From the NCBI GenBank assembly GCA_016840125.1, contig JAEOSY010000191.1, forward strand, positions 1 through 35,746: DNA of 35,746 bases. Direction: 5' to 3'. Position numbers and translations under genes: made by a program. The notes under the pieces are model-generated. The model ran no database searches. It was not told the DNA's origin and saw only the letters and a list, made by a program, of their open reading frames with translations. This DNA is from Candidatus Helarchaeota archaeon. GTDB taxonomy: Archaea; Asgardarchaeota; Lokiarchaeia; Helarchaeales; HEL-GB-A. The first letter of the stretch is position 1. Every line of letters starts with the position of its first letter. This document shows, piece after piece, positions 15,377 to 31,850 of this stretch.

Positions 15377-15949
15377 ATGACTATTTTGAAATCCAAGAAT
15401 TTAAAAGATTCAAGTTCCAAACTATCATTTATGACTGCTAGTGCTGAAAAATATGGACTCTCCGTAGGAGAGAAAGCGCCAGATTTTAGCACCGTTGATA
15501 CAGCGAAAAATGAGGTCAGCTTGGAAGCATTACTCAAAAATAATAAAGGTGTATTGATTAACTTTTTCCGGGGAAGTTGGTGAGCTTACTGTAAAAAGGA
15601 TTTAAAGTTGCTCATCGAAAAAAATCCTGAAATCGAGAGGTTGAATGTAAAAATGATTTCGATCGCTGCCGATAGCCCAAGAAATCTGCGAAAACTACAT
15701 GAACGGTATCAATCTTCAATCCCATTCATCGCAGACAAGGGAGGGCAAATCGCTACCACTTATAAGGTCTATTTCACTGCAGACCAACCCGATCCCGAGC
15801 ATACGCATGATGAATTCCAAGATAAGCATGCTATCCCCTCCAAATTCTTGATTAATCGAGAAGGAATAATTGTCTGGCGCTATATCGGAACTAAAGAAGA
15901 TCGCCCTGTAATGGACGCGATGGTTGAGGCAATTGAGAACGATTTGTAA
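15377..15949 (+). CDS. Selenocysteine-containing peroxiredoxin-like protein (in-frame TGA read as Sec)
   Basis: 190 residues if TGA at 15581-15583 is read as selenocysteine (U69). The upstream part has the thioredoxin-fold peroxiredoxin start GEKAPDFSTVD and ends FFRGSW; the TGA is followed in the same frame by AYCKKDLKLL and the rest of the fold, through SIAADSPRNLRKL and IPSKFLINREGIIVWRYIG. AhpC/TSA-like proteins of this kind have FxRGxWCPYC, so the TGA stands exactly at the peroxidatic Cys, giving a UxxC centre with C72. Role: reduction of peroxides or other thiol-type redox work in the cytosol. Third gene of the LRR operon. Without Sec insertion the product would be a useless 68-residue fragment. 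A pseudogene is unlikely, as the downstream frame is intact to a TAA and a SECIS-like fold follows. Confidence 0.9.
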
Positions 15950-15954
15950 CCTAG

Positions 15955-16026
15955 AACTCAGAAAAGAATGATTCAAGCATAAAAATCCGAGATGTTTGAG
16001 GACAATCCTGCCCGGAAAGCTGAGTT
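15955..16026 (+). promoter_or_regulatory. Candidate SECIS element in the 3' UTR, eukaryote-like
   Basis: Folded by hand. The core is ATGA at 15968-15971, then TTCAAGCAT (15972-15980) paired with ATGTTTGAG (15992-16000): nine continuous pairs with two G-U wobbles and an 11-nt loop that starts AAAAA. GA at 16001-16002 faces the ATGA, giving the tandem G-A/A-G pairs of a kink-turn quartet, as in the ATGA-AA-GA core of eukaryotic SECIS. AACTCA (15955-15960) and TGAGTT (16021-16026) can form a 6-bp basal stem. It begins 5 nt after the stop of the peroxiredoxin and ends 3 nt before a T7 run. The helix is shorter than in eukaryotes. Confidence 0.65.
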
Positions 16027-16063: not shown

Positions 16064-16561
16064 TTATAGGATTAGCACTGAGAGGACGTTTGAATCAACA
16101 GCTACACTCGAAAAACTTCCTGTAACCTGAACTTGTATAGTTACATTATGAGCACCTGGAGATAATCCCATACTAACGTATCGATAAGCAACGGCATATG
16201 TATATGGAATACCTAAGGTAGTATAATCATATATCCAGTAGTTATCGGATACTGGGACCCCATCTATTGCGAAAACAAATTGCGCCTGCTGTCCTGATGG
16301 AGGTGCTGATGGAGTCCAACCCAAATAACAGTTAAAGAAGAGCTCTAATGAATCACCCGTTTGTAATGAAAGATTTATCGTTAAACCAGGTATATCTGTT
16401 AGAGAACCAGATGGATCATAAGAAGACGTACGTGAAATTATGAAGTAAGTTTGCCGTTCATCTGCTGCTTGGATTGGAAAAACCATCGGTAGGAGGAAAT
16501 AGCCGACCGCGGCTCCTGCAACCAGTGCAATTAAAATTCCTGCTGCAATTCCTTTTCCCAT
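16064..16561 (-). CDS. Small membrane-anchored surface protein, paralogue A
   Basis: 165 residues. An N-terminal glycine-zipper-like membrane helix, GIAAGILIALVAGAAVGYFL, is followed by a beta-rich domain of about 135 residues ending in SPGAHNVTIQVQVTG and VLSVLIL, an immunoglobulin-like sandwich pattern. It is a clear paralogue of the gene at 18820-19335: same M-x-KG-AGI start, same LP-FP after the helix, same YRY and AGSHNVT/GAHNVT strand and same VLSV end. Function unknown; a surface-exposed or pseudoperiplasmic binding protein is likely. GGTGA lies six bases before the ATG. Confidence 0.75.
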   Translation of the reverse strand: MGKGIAAGILIALVAGAAVGYFLLPMVFPIQAADERQTYFIISRTSSYDPSGSLTDIPGLTINLSLQTGDSLELFFNCYLGWTPSAPPSGQQAQFVFAIDGVPVSDNYWIYDYTTLGIPYTYAVAYRYVSMGLSPGAHNVTIQVQVTGSFSSVAVDSNVLSVLIL

Positions 16562-18819: not shown

Positions 18820-19335
18820 TTAGAATATCTGGACCGAAAGGACATGCGTATCGGTGCTCGCCTGAGTTAAATTGACTCCCCCAACTTTTATCCGCATCGT
18901 CACATTATGGCTGCCGGCTGAGAGATCAGTTCTGAGATATCGATAAACCACGGATTGCGTAAGAGTTGCAGCATCAATTGTTGTTACTTGAACACTAGCT
19001 TCCTCTGCAAAAGGTACTTGTACATCATCTATCACGTAAGCAAAATCGGCATAGAACACCAGAGAATCGGGAGAAGAGGGATTAAACGAGAGCTCACACG
19101 TGAAAGTGAAAAGGACTGAATCTCCAGCTTGTGTTGGGAAAAGAAAACTCATGTTATTTATGGCTTCATAAGAACCAGTAACCGTGTATCCATGACTATC
19201 CATATCTTGAACAAAATAAAAAGTATCCCTATCGGTGTCCGCTTGTGATGGAAAAAAGTATGGCAATACGAGATAGCCCAATGCCGTTCCAGCGACCAAT
19301 CCAACAACAATTCCAGCTATAAGACCTTTGTTCAT
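18820..19335 (-). CDS. Small membrane-anchored surface protein, paralogue B
   Basis: 171 residues. N-terminal membrane helix GLIAGIVVGLVAGTALGYLV, then PYFFPSQ and a beta-rich domain with LVFYADFAYVIDDVQVP, VVYRYLRTDLSAGSHNVTM and the end VLSVQIF. Paralogous to 16064-16561 over the full length, though identity in the middle is low. GGTGAT lies five bases before the ATG. The two copies are separated by the dehydrogenase and the unknown gene on the opposite strand, so they are not a simple tandem pair. Function unknown. Confidence 0.75.
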   Translation of the reverse strand: MNKGLIAGIVVGLVAGTALGYLVLPYFFPSQADTDRDTFYFVQDMDSHGYTVTGSYEAINNMSFLFPTQAGDSVLFTFTCELSFNPSSPDSLVFYADFAYVIDDVQVPFAEEASVQVTTIDAATLTQSVVYRYLRTDLSAGSHNVTMRIKVGGVNLTQASTDTHVLSVQIF

Positions 19336-28097: not shown

Positions 28098-29816
28098 TTA
28101 TCCTCTACGGACAACTTTTCTCAAGCCTTTCGTAACTCGTTTTCGAATACTTGGCTTCTTTTTCTTCTCAGTGGTTTCTTTATCTTTTTTCGGGGCGGGC
28201 TTTTTCGCTGGCTTCTTCTTTTTTGGCGCGTCTTTCTTGGTAACGGGCTTCTTTTTCTTAGCGGGTGGTTTTCTGGGCGGTTTCTTCGGTCTCTCGGAAA
28301 TTGCTCTCTTTCTACGATGGGGTTTCCTCCGTGGTTTATCTTTTGGGCGCGCTGGCTCTTTTAAGGGAGGTCGGGAGCGTTTTCGTCTGGGTTGGGGCGG
28401 TTGTGAGGTTTGGGCATCTTCCATCAGTTGTTGGATATTGCTACTTAAGGCGGGATCCTTCCTTTTAAGAGAACTCAAGTCCGGCATTTTCTTTTGCATT
28501 TTAGAATAATCCCGTCGGGCTTGCTGGCGAATTTGACGTTGTTCCATAATCTTCATCTTAATGAGAACTTGCTTCCAAGAATCCCAGAGATAATCCCCAT
28601 CATAGGTACCCGGCACCTTATCCGGTCCGCCATACGCTTTAATCTTTTCGTCCATGCGTTCCCAGAGTCTCGCTTCTTCCAACTCTTCTTCACTGATCAG
28701 CCACTTCCCGTAGGAATCTTTGAACATTTCCAAAACATTTGTCCTTCTATCGCTCTCGTAACCGTCCTTTATTCGTTTATCAAGCAGATTGATTGGCAGC
28801 CATTTAAGAGTTAACTGTCGGACATGAGAACCTATATGTGCAGAATTCTGGTTATCTCCATCATCTTCATCTTGGTCTGTAAACACGGAATCATAATCTG
28901 AATCAGACATCAAGAGATAAGATGACGGATAGCCTGCACTTCTCACGTTTCTATTGTAAGGGTCATCACCATGAGAAAGATGCATTTCAATTGTGGGAAG
29001 GTAAGGTATCGCATGATGCGCATACCGTTCATAAAGCACGGGAATATTCACGGTGCGTAACACACAGCGTAGGAATCCGTTCGTCCCATGGCAACCCGCG
29101 GTAAAGTGTCTTGTTTCAGTTTCATTCAAGTGCACGTTCAACTCGTCATTATCGTATACCCTTTTGGTCCCCAGTATTACTCGGCTTACTGGTGCATAGC
29201 CGCGGTAATGCCAATGACAGTCATGTGACGCGGTCGGATAGTCTCTACCCGAAGGAGCTCCTCCAAAATGGACCATGTTCTCCCGGCACCACTGCAACAG
29301 ATTCCCAACGGTTTCCTCGGGGGTATCCTCAATTTTTGTGGTATGTTTCAAGAGGATCCATGGCAGACTGGGAGTCCCTGGAGTTGCATTCCCGGTAGTC
29401 CAGTAGTTTATGGAATAATTTTTTCCCAGATCCCCATCTATTTTGCATGTAAAGAAGGCTCGGCTGTCAAATAAATGGTAAAGATCATCGTTGTCGTAGT
29501 CTAGGATTGACCATGATACCCATTGTTTTACCTCCACGGCAAGACTATGAGCGATATATGCAATATAAATGTCCCACGCATCTTGCGGTGAAATTCGGGT
29601 ATCATAGAAATCATCATCATCCAATAATTTGAGGTTTTCCGGAGGATCGGGGACAAATAGCCACGCATGTTGTTTTGCCAAGTTATAAGTCCTCAAGAGA
29701 TCATTCCGCATCTCCTCCGTCCAAGCCGCAAAGTCCAGAGTCTCTCTTGGTTCTCGCTCCCATTTGATTGCATTCCTAATTTTTGCATTCGCACTGATCC
29801 AATCTAATATCGTCAT
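28098..29816 (-). CDS. Transglutaminase-like protein with Lys/Pro-rich tail, copy 1
   Basis: 572 residues. The catalytic core (about 80-310) has the transglutaminase-like order: Cys242 in FTAGCHGTNGF, His268 in HHAIPYLPTIE and Asp284/285 in HLSHGDDPYN, the Cys-His-Asp set of papain/transglutaminase folds. N-terminal 80 residues are helical with a conserved W-I start. From about 450 to the end lies a tail very rich in Lys, Arg and Pro (PKKPPRKPPAKKKK and similar), like histone H1 C-termini, ending RKRVTKGLRKVVRRG. No signal peptide: cytosolic. Activity could be protein cross-linking or proteolysis; the tail could be amine donor, DNA binder or membrane binder. AGAGG precedes the ATG. Paralogue at 29966-31708. 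Confidence 0.75.
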   Translation of the reverse strand: MTILDWISANAKIRNAIKWEREPRETLDFAAWTEEMRNDLLRTYNLAKQHAWLFVPDPPENLKLLDDDDFYDTRISPQDAWDIYIAYIAHSLAVEVKQWVSWSILDYDNDDLYHLFDSRAFFTCKIDGDLGKNYSINYWTTGNATPGTPSLPWILLKHTTKIEDTPEETVGNLLQWCRENMVHFGGAPSGRDYPTASHDCHWHYRGYAPVSRVILGTKRVYDNDELNVHLNETETRHFTAGCHGTNGFLRCVLRTVNIPVLYERYAHHAIPYLPTIEMHLSHGDDPYNRNVRSAGYPSSYLLMSDSDYDSVFTDQDEDDGDNQNSAHIGSHVRQLTLKWLPINLLDKRIKDGYESDRRTNVLEMFKDSYGKWLISEEELEEARLWERMDEKIKAYGGPDKVPGTYDGDYLWDSWKQVLIKMKIMEQRQIRQQARRDYSKMQKKMPDLSSLKRKDPALSSNIQQLMEDAQTSQPPQPRRKRSRPPLKEPARPKDKPRRKPHRRKRAISERPKKPPRKPPAKKKKPVTKKDAPKKKKPAKKPAPKKDKETTEKKKKPSIRKRVTKGLRKVVRRG

Positions 29817-29965: not shown

Positions 29966-31708
29966 CTATCCACGACGGACAATCTTTCTTAGGCGTTTTG
30001 TGACTCGTTTTCGGAGACTATTTTTCGATTTTATGTCGGATGTGGATTTTTCCTTCTCAGAAGCAGCTTCCTTCTTTTTAATAGATGGTGGCTTCTTTTT
30101 TGTGGGTGGTTCTTTTGTAGTTTTCTTCTGTTTATCGGAGATAGGTTTCTTCAGCCGACGGAGTTTCTTTCGCGGTTCCTCCTTCGGTGGGATGGGTTCC
30201 TTGATCGGGGGACGGGCTCCTTTTCGACCGGGCTTACGGGATTTCGAGGGTTGAGTGCTAGGTTGCGGGATTCGGGCTTTGGCCGTACTCGGTTCGAGTT
30301 GACTGGTATCAATGGACGGTCTTTTCCTCTTCAGATTGGCAAAATCCTTCTTTGCCTTCTCAATCATGGGAAAGCGTTCACGTATTCTCTTTTGACCTAA
30401 CACTTGTTCCCATGACGACCACAAGTAATCATCGGTTTCAGGAACTTTATCAGGACCGCCGTAGGCTTCAATTTTCTCATCAAGACGAGGCGCCAGCCTT
30501 TTCACCTTCCACTCCTTAATGCGTTCAAACATTTCTGGAGTATTGTATTGGGACTTAGCGAAGAATAGATCTGTAATATTCGGCTTATACCTGATCTTAA
30601 AATCCTCGGGAGGATAATCTTTCCCAGTGACTTGTTTGTATTCCTCTGCCCACTCCCAGTCCTTTACCCGCGCATGGACTAGACGTAGGGGAAGATATTG
30701 GTACATTAAATATTCGGTATGGATTCCTACTTTTTCTACTTCACCCTTTACATAGAGTTTGTTGTATTTCGCCGAATCCATTAGGAAATATTCACCTGGA
30801 AAGCCTGCGGTTTGTATGATATAACCATACGGGTCATCCCCATGTCCTAACCACCGATCGACTGTTGGAAAATAAGCTTGGGTATGTCCTTCATACATGT
30901 TTAAAATGACTGGGATGTTAACCGTACGAAGGATGTAGTACAAGAGTCCGCCAGTTCCATGGCATCCAGCAGTCCAGTGCTGCTTTTCTTCGTCTTTTAC
31001 ACCCAATTCTTCGAACTCCTGGAAGGTTCCCTCTATTACCCGTTTGACAGGAGCATATCCTCGGTATTGCCAGAAGCCTTCGCGGACTCGTGTAAGTTTA
31101 ACTTTATAAGATTCCGTTGGAAGGCCATAATGCACCAGGTTACGACACCAGTCCAATAGATTCCCGATTGTTTTGAGTGGGGTATTATCAATTAGGCTCC
31201 CCTGTCGCATCAAGGCGAACGGAAGACTCGGGCTACCGGGCGTGATATGGGGGAGCGTGTATTGGTCAATCAGATAAACATCCTTACCACCCGCCCCCCT
31301 AGTCAACGTAAAGAATTTACGACTGTCAAATAGAAGTTCCAACTCAGATTTCTTATAGTTCAAAATTGACCAGTTAACCCAGTTTTGGGTTTCTACCGCA
31401 AGGCTCTGGGCAACATGGGCAAAATAAATATCCTTTGCGTCTTCGTGCGATAATTGTGTTACTGGCCAATCTGTATCTTCTAACGTTTTTTGATTCGGTG
31501 GAGGGTCCCGTACATTGATCCATTTTACCGAGACAATTCTGTTGTAATTATTCTCAAGCTTTTCTTTCATTTCGACAGGCCATTCTTCGTACTTATAATC
31601 CTTTGGATAAGCGCCTTTGTTCGGATCATCAGGATCCTCATACCAATATTCCTGCCACAATATGGTGTCCCTTACTTTCGGATGTGCGTTTATCCAGTTT
31701 TCAATCAT
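29966..31708 (-). CDS. Transglutaminase-like protein with Lys/Pro-rich tail, copy 2
   Basis: 580 residues from the ATG at 31708 (MIENWINAHPKVRD aligns with the start of copy 1); a GTG at 31720 is the alternative and GAGGTGG overlaps it. The core keeps WTAGCHGTGGLL (Cys), EGHTQAYFPTVD (His) and LGHGDDPYGY (Asp). Further shared blocks are YRGYAPV-RVI, LRTVNIPV and GGPDKVP, so the two proteins are homologous over their whole length. The tail also shares ordered motifs with copy 1, RPPIKEP-PK and ISD-KK, and ends RKRVTKRLRKIVRRG. This conservation shows that the tail is more than low-complexity filler. Cytosolic, probably co-regulated with copy 1 through the shared upstream element. Confidence 0.75.
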   Translation of the reverse strand: MIENWINAHPKVRDTILWQEYWYEDPDDPNKGAYPKDYKYEEWPVEMKEKLENNYNRIVSVKWINVRDPPPNQKTLEDTDWPVTQLSHEDAKDIYFAHVAQSLAVETQNWVNWSILNYKKSELELLFDSRKFFTLTRGAGGKDVYLIDQYTLPHITPGSPSLPFALMRQGSLIDNTPLKTIGNLLDWCRNLVHYGLPTESYKVKLTRVREGFWQYRGYAPVKRVIEGTFQEFEELGVKDEEKQHWTAGCHGTGGLLYYILRTVNIPVILNMYEGHTQAYFPTVDRWLGHGDDPYGYIIQTAGFPGEYFLMDSAKYNKLYVKGEVEKVGIHTEYLMYQYLPLRLVHARVKDWEWAEEYKQVTGKDYPPEDFKIRYKPNITDLFFAKSQYNTPEMFERIKEWKVKRLAPRLDEKIEAYGGPDKVPETDDYLWSSWEQVLGQKRIRERFPMIEKAKKDFANLKRKRPSIDTSQLEPSTAKARIPQPSTQPSKSRKPGRKGARPPIKEPIPPKEEPRKKLRRLKKPISDKQKKTTKEPPTKKKPPSIKKKEAASEKEKSTSDIKSKNSLRKRVTKRLRKIVRRG

Positions 31709-31850
31709 GTCCAAATCCACCTCATAAAAACCAGTAAAAATTCTATTTCCTATTGATTTTTTTTATTAAATGATTTCAAATATTAGATTTATAGTATTTC
31801 TTATAAAAATGCATAAGGATTGATATTTTAATATAATACAAATTGATTTT

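Follow-up and report, generated by a model that had tools for sequence, protein, structure and literature searches.

A redoxin gene with an in-frame TGA and a downstream SECIS element

The window, by which we mean the whole 35,746-nucleotide stretch of contig JAEOSY010000191.1, carries on its forward strand a redoxin gene whose reading frame is interrupted by a TGA codon and which is followed by a selenocysteine insertion sequence (SECIS) element. This gene almost certainly encodes a peroxiredoxin-like (Prx-like) selenoprotein of an Asgard archaeon; direct support comes from the conservation of the TGA, from the SECIS element and its covariation, from the predicted fold, and from the selenocysteine (Sec, U) genes of related genomes. 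The features of the locus are as follows.

15431..15949, + strand: likely coding region for the Prx-like selenoprotein, 172 residues with Sec at 51; start inferred from the homologue P0002
15377, + strand: upstream in-frame ATG, giving a 190-residue frame with Sec at 69
15581..15583, + strand: TGA predicted to be read as Sec, U69 of the 190-residue frame; TGA in 61/61 distinct genes covering the site
15590..15592, + strand: TGT, Cys72, second residue of the UxxC centre; a Cys codon in 41/61 genes, TGA in 20/61
15836..15838, + strand: CCC, Pro154, where thioredoxin-type oxidoreductases have their cis-Pro; Pro in 57/57 aligned rows, aligned with the Pro of ResA
15968..16002, + strand: core of a type I eukaryote-like SECIS element, from its fold, 52/59 flanks, shuffles and covariation
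15955..16026, + strand: lower stem round the SECIS core, 15955-15961 (AACUCAG) with 16020-16026 (CUGAGUU), 7 bp, from the minimum-energy fold of one sequence

The TGA shares its frame with an ATG at 15377 and a TAA at 15947-15949, and when it is read as U the protein has 190 residues and the active-site stretch FFRGSW-U-AYC, with U69 and C72 as a UxxC centre. The Pfam domain AhpC-TSA (PF00578) spans the TGA (residues 30-167; 5.6e-27; 94.6 bits against a cut-off of 26), and the Redoxin domain is matched too. An earlier sequence-only reading of this DNA had claimed that the TGA interrupts an otherwise intact frame at such a centre and that one fold is coded on both sides of it; the first claim is borne out by the frame itself and by the 61 genes described below, and the second by the AhpC-TSA match that runs across the codon. 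The homologue P0002 is 81% identical over 91% of the protein, on either side of the TGA, and has W at the site; since its alignment begins at the ATG at 15431, this is the likelier start, which would give a 172-residue protein with U51 and C54. We nevertheless keep the numbering of the 190-residue frame throughout. Under translation table 11, only a tail of 113 residues appears as an open reading frame (ORF) of at least 80 residues, and the protein database entry P0003 consists of only this 113-residue tail, without the active site. The database entry P0145, from the cultured Candidatus Lokiarchaeum ossiferum, likewise begins downstream of the active-site Sec.

When 227 genomes of the Lokiarchaeota phylum were searched with a profile (E 1e-20), 41 of them yielded 60 gene matches in all, and no match lacked an internal TGA. 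A contig scan with a six-protein alignment found ten loci, all in Lokiarchaeota or Lokiarchaeia; the same scan with the window protein alone found no relative. Patterns built from one protein reach no further than close relatives, and of the six used, one overlapped the TGA. A tblastn search against plasmids gave 76 records, every one below 60% identity. After removal of duplicates there were 62 distinct matches, one of which does not cover the site, leaving 61 with the window included. The codon in the U69 column is TGA in all 61, and Cys, TAA or TAG in none; in the C72 column, 41 genes have a Cys codon (TGT or TGC) and 20 have TGA. Thus, the TGA is not there by chance, and the relatives, checked for another stop codon or a frameshift at the site, favour its reading as selenocysteine.

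These counts bear on the simplest alternative, that a redoxin gene of the Cys type has acquired its TGA by nonsense mutation or through an error of sequencing. The window is a single contig and TGA is one base away from both TGT and TGC, as such an error would have it; yet the same column holds TGA in every gene from 41 genomes and the window, and a Cys codon in none, and a matched SECIS element follows the gene, so that this explanation is in effect refuted and its probability is negligible. The nearest Cys form among the sequences inspected (11 new ones, among 42 proteins found by database search) was P0150, with RGNWCPLC and 30% identity.

A second alternative is that the host reads TGA as tryptophan (code 4). 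Full-length database relatives have W at the site (P0002, P0004, P0128 and P0129) or WxxW at the centre (P0131, P0135, P0138 and P0141), as that reading would predict; these residues also fit gene callers that read TGA as Trp, and calling under code 4 would account for them. Against a recoded TGA, four of the 27 ORFs listed for the window end in TGA, which is therefore still a stop codon there, the codon falls on the leading residue of a centre of CxxC type, and a SECIS element is present. We regard tryptophan as an extremely improbable reading. Selenocysteine, which the sequence-only reading had placed at this codon, is in turn well supported by the conserved TGA and the matched SECIS element.

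The SECIS core starts 18 bases past the stop codon and consists of AUGA (15968-15971), a stem with nine of nine positions paired (15972-15980 with 15992-16000), an apical loop of 11 bases (15981-15991, AAAAAUCCGAG) and GA (16001-16002). It lies beyond the range of the earlier reading, which ended at the stop codon. A perfect core arose in one of 20,000 shuffles of the window flank, and when both strands of the window were scanned for AUGA cores, one mismatch being allowed, this site (15968-16002) was the only one to appear. Of the 59 flanks with 90 bases or more, 52, including the window's, have the element under a fixed rule; among 1180 shuffled flanks, 8 equalled the score of the sequence they came from, a count that includes any element in the shuffle of a flank that itself has none. 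On the unfiltered MAFFT alignment of all 59 flanks, RNAalifold predicted one helix of eight pairs, which is the upper stem, with standard pairs in 48 to 57 of 57 to 59 sequences. Compensatory exchanges occur within it (A-U 28 and G-C 23 at one pair; A-U 24 and U-A 21 at another). A filtered count gave 411 of 450 paired cells against at most 343 with the mates shuffled, and is biased because elements with more than two mismatches had been excluded beforehand. Rfam at the gathering threshold and ARAGORN had no match anywhere in the window, so the element carries no Rfam name. It does agree with the type I Asgard model (GA_[G/A]A core, 7-15 bp stem, 8-20 nt loop, location in the 3' untranslated region (UTR)), the Lokiarchaeal form of which is reported to be AUGA_GA with a loop that opens in a run of A (Huang, 2024; PMC11227280).

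Host and selenocysteine machinery in related genomes

The best-scoring named relative of the redoxin, P0005, is from Candidatus Helarchaeota (70% over 53% of the query), as is the best-scoring named match of the neighbouring 3-hydroxyacyl-CoA dehydrogenase (P0012, 80%). The Asgard host proposed by the sequence-only reading is thus well supported, and it is probably close to Helarchaeota. The same reading expected a complete Sec machinery in the host, which the genomes of relatives suggest. There, the ribosome would read the UGA at 15581-15583 as selenocysteine, the type I eukaryote-like SECIS element in the 3' UTR would be the signal, acting with EFSec, and tRNA-Sec would be charged through PSTK and SepSecS.

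Of the 227 genomes, 132 encode SepSecS (TIGR03531); these comprise 38 of the 41 that carry the Prx-like gene and 94 of the 186 that lack it (Fisher p 1.5e-7). PSTK matches at 1e-10 or better, all below the curated cut-off, were also found in 38 of the 41, and each of the 41 genomes has a match for at least one of the two. The three without SepSecS (G100, G152 and G154) have a PSTK match of 5.4e-34 or better; three others (G095, G108 and G153) have SepSecS and no PSTK match at 1e-10. SelD exceeded its cut-off in nine of ten genomes tested, and the nine best matches carry one TGA each. Two selD genes, with one internal TGA each, lie close together on one contig in G142, G143, G145, G148, G136 and G138; Lokiarchaeia and Thorarchaeia with two or more selD genes are mentioned in the literature (Huang, 2024).

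The best match to the SelB model (TIGR00475) is a few kb from SepSecS on the same contig in seven of ten genomes tested for EFSec, with scores of 226 to 237 bits in eight; because the model also matches all 14 control genomes, two of them over the cut-off, we do not claim EFSec from the score alone. tRNA-Sec exceeded the Rfam cut-off in 70 of the 227 genomes. Near-misses occurred in G007 (43.9 bits; labelled tRNA-SeC by ARAGORN) and G010 (45.3 bits), against a cut-off of 47. Matches of a loose search below the cut-off were not counted, since that search matched all 14 controls, five of them over the cut-off; a stricter search matched five controls. The region upstream of SepSecS was inspected in 11 further genomes that carry the Prx-like gene, and in 10 it contains a gene resembling tRNA-Sec, with a TCA anticodon and apparently two insertions (L093-L101 and L103, in G148, G142, G143, G145, G146, G138, G136, G002, G006 and G008); none was seen upstream of SepSecS at L102 (G009). 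All ten have an insertion in the T loop, and the second insertion is in the D arm (L093, L094, L095, L100, L101 and L103) or in the anticodon loop (L096-L099). This apparent splitting by introns could explain why tRNA-Sec was missed in these 10 of the 11 genomes inspected. Four of the ten were recognised by shared sequence, and ARAGORN found none of the ten. A pair of insertions was not met in the published passages that deal with such genes. As a separate observation, tRNA-Sec adjoins SepSecS in G003:C41 and G010:C5, with a SelB-like match a few kb away, and adjoins a PSTK-like match in G184:C68 and G204:C61.

Several points weigh against a selenoprotein. Under the fixed rule, 7 of the 59 flanks have no element, and the window's 3' flank folds with an ordinary energy (z -0.22), so that the evidence for the SECIS element is motif and covariation, not stability. 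The Sec machinery is known from related genomes and not from the window's own genome; one of those, G003, has the gene and SepSecS and no SelD match over the cut-off. All ten genomes tested for EFSec match the SelB model below its cut-off, G151 and G154 weakly. tRNA-Sec passes the Rfam cut-off in no more than 12 of the 41 gene-bearing genomes, and Rfam scores six of the ten split genes, all below it (E 5e-4 once and 0.03 to 0.5 five times). Finally, both the insertion of Sec and the chemistry of the enzyme are inferred.

Active centre and enzyme class

The predicted fold is that of a peroxiredoxin, with U69 at the start of a long helix, and the top structural neighbours by Z are the AhpE and Bcp peroxiredoxins. 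Classical peroxiredoxins have a PxxxTxxC motif and a catalytic Arg, whereas thioredoxin-type thiol:disulfide oxidoreductases such as ResA and TlpA have a CxxC-type centre faced by a cis-Pro. The protein alignment took 55 of the 62 matches, leaving out those with TAA or TAG, an extra TGA, an uncovered site, or short or cut ends. The PxxxTxxC motif is absent from all 57 aligned proteins: the residue three before U69 is Gly in 56 and Ala in one, never Thr or Ser, and the residue seven before it is never Pro. Sequence alignments place a Pro or a gap near the position of the classical catalytic Arg. For peroxiredoxins with Sec, the motif is given as PxxxTxxU in the part of a review that treats them (PMC13188914).

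The sequence-only reading had called the U69 position peroxidatic. The peroxiredoxin fold and the place of U69 at the start of the helix uphold the part of that claim that concerns structure; the missing motif and the Pro at position 154 in every row speak against the part that concerns function. A true peroxidase, with U69 as the peroxidatic residue reducing hydrogen peroxide or alkyl hydroperoxides, would be in keeping with the fold, with AhpE and Bcp as nearest structures and with the AhpC-TSA and Redoxin domains. It has to contend with rows that all lack the Pro and the Thr or Ser, and with ResA as both the best PDB sequence match (2.9e-20) and the best NCBIfam match (64.5 bits, far below the cut-off of 170), and we give it somewhat less than an even chance. 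The absence of PxxxTxxC, together with a Pro at the place of ResA's, would suit a thiol:disulfide oxidoreductase as well, and we lean towards such an enzyme over a classical peroxidase. The U69 selenol would probably attack a disulfide or peroxide substrate; a U69-C72 selenenylsulfide would form next and would then be reduced by a thioredoxin-like donor.

The second residue of the centre, unlike the first, switches between Cys and TGA. On a tree in which 17 of 57 rows are UxxU, six changes are needed, five of them forced by supported branches, a count that carries a long-branch warning because long branches meet in the tree (L083, L087 and one more). Moreover, Prx-like genes with UxxC and UxxU lie side by side in five genomes: G002:C3 (L063), G007:C73 (L080), G009:C10 (L077), G122:C188 (L072) and G127:C54 (L070). 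The second copy at L077 has a TAA and an extra TGA besides, and may be decayed. We tentatively suggest a selenium-locked family, in which the first residue is always Sec, the second alternates between Cys and Sec, and UxxU centres occur, its members being selenium-based disulfide reductases and not peroxidases; if this is true, the UxxU centres could form a diselenide. The UxxU motif as such is known, since UxxC and UxxU are listed for the prokaryotic Prx-like family in the relevant entries of two papers (PMC13188914; PMC9312934); the term is absent from the main text of Huang (2024). Neither the invariant TGA at the first position nor the repeated switching at the second was met in the published passages that deal with the family.

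Surroundings and comparison with known systems

The genes within 6 kb of the window's gene do not accompany it in the ten named loci; the one exception, an LRR protein in L009, we take to be chance. Elsewhere in the window, two adjacent ORFs on the minus strand (28098-29816 and 29966-31720; 572 and 584 residues) look alike by eye and have long tails rich in Lys, Pro and Arg at their ends. Two small ORFs, also on the minus strand (16064-16561 and 18820-19335), seem by eye to share an N-terminal hydrophobic design.

With this gene, the family gains a divergent, Helarchaeota-like member that is a clean case and has a textbook SECIS element of the eukaryote-like kind. The Asgard Prx-like family serves arguments on the passage of selenocysteine coding from archaea to eukaryotes, and the invariant TGA at the first position, set against a second position that has repeatedly switched between Cys and TGA, offers a testable case of why selenium is required.

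ResA has a role in cytochrome c maturation that we do not ascribe to the window protein. The two are alike in that the CxxC-type centre and the later Pro align, and unlike in that the window protein falls far short of the ResA cut-off. From AhpE of M. tuberculosis and Bcp4 of Sulfolobus, the window family differs in having no PxxxTxxC and in placing Sec first, with Cys or Sec at +3.

In its published descriptions, Prx-like (prxL) is among five widespread Asgard selenoprotein families, occurs in 43.2% of Sec-using Asgard archaea, mainly with a type I SECIS, and was first reported as an Asgard selenoprotein by Mariotti (2016), whom Huang (2024) credits. Likewise, other studies report three selenoproteins in Sifarchaeia and Jordarchaeia, one of them a peroxiredoxin (Sun, 2021; PMC9723677), and Prx-like in Atabeyarchaeia and Freyarchaeia (PMC11291895, 2024). 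The window gene resembles Asgard prxL in being a redoxin with UGA-encoded Sec from a Lokiarchaeal or Helarchaeal host, and in its SECIS in the 3' UTR, of type I as in most of the family, with an AUGA_GA core and an A-rich loop; no difference was seen in a comparison made by description and not against the published sequences. It also shares the domain (PF00578), the UxxC centre and, among its relatives, UxxU with what the review passage calls the prokaryotic 'Prx-like thiol:disulfide oxidoreductase' with UxxC/UxxU (PMC13188914; see also PMC9312934), and the Asgard proteins would belong in that row, set there by description and not by a reference sequence. Thus, the family and an Asgard host with Sec machinery are already in print, and the gene described here is a new and divergent member, ordinary for its lineage.
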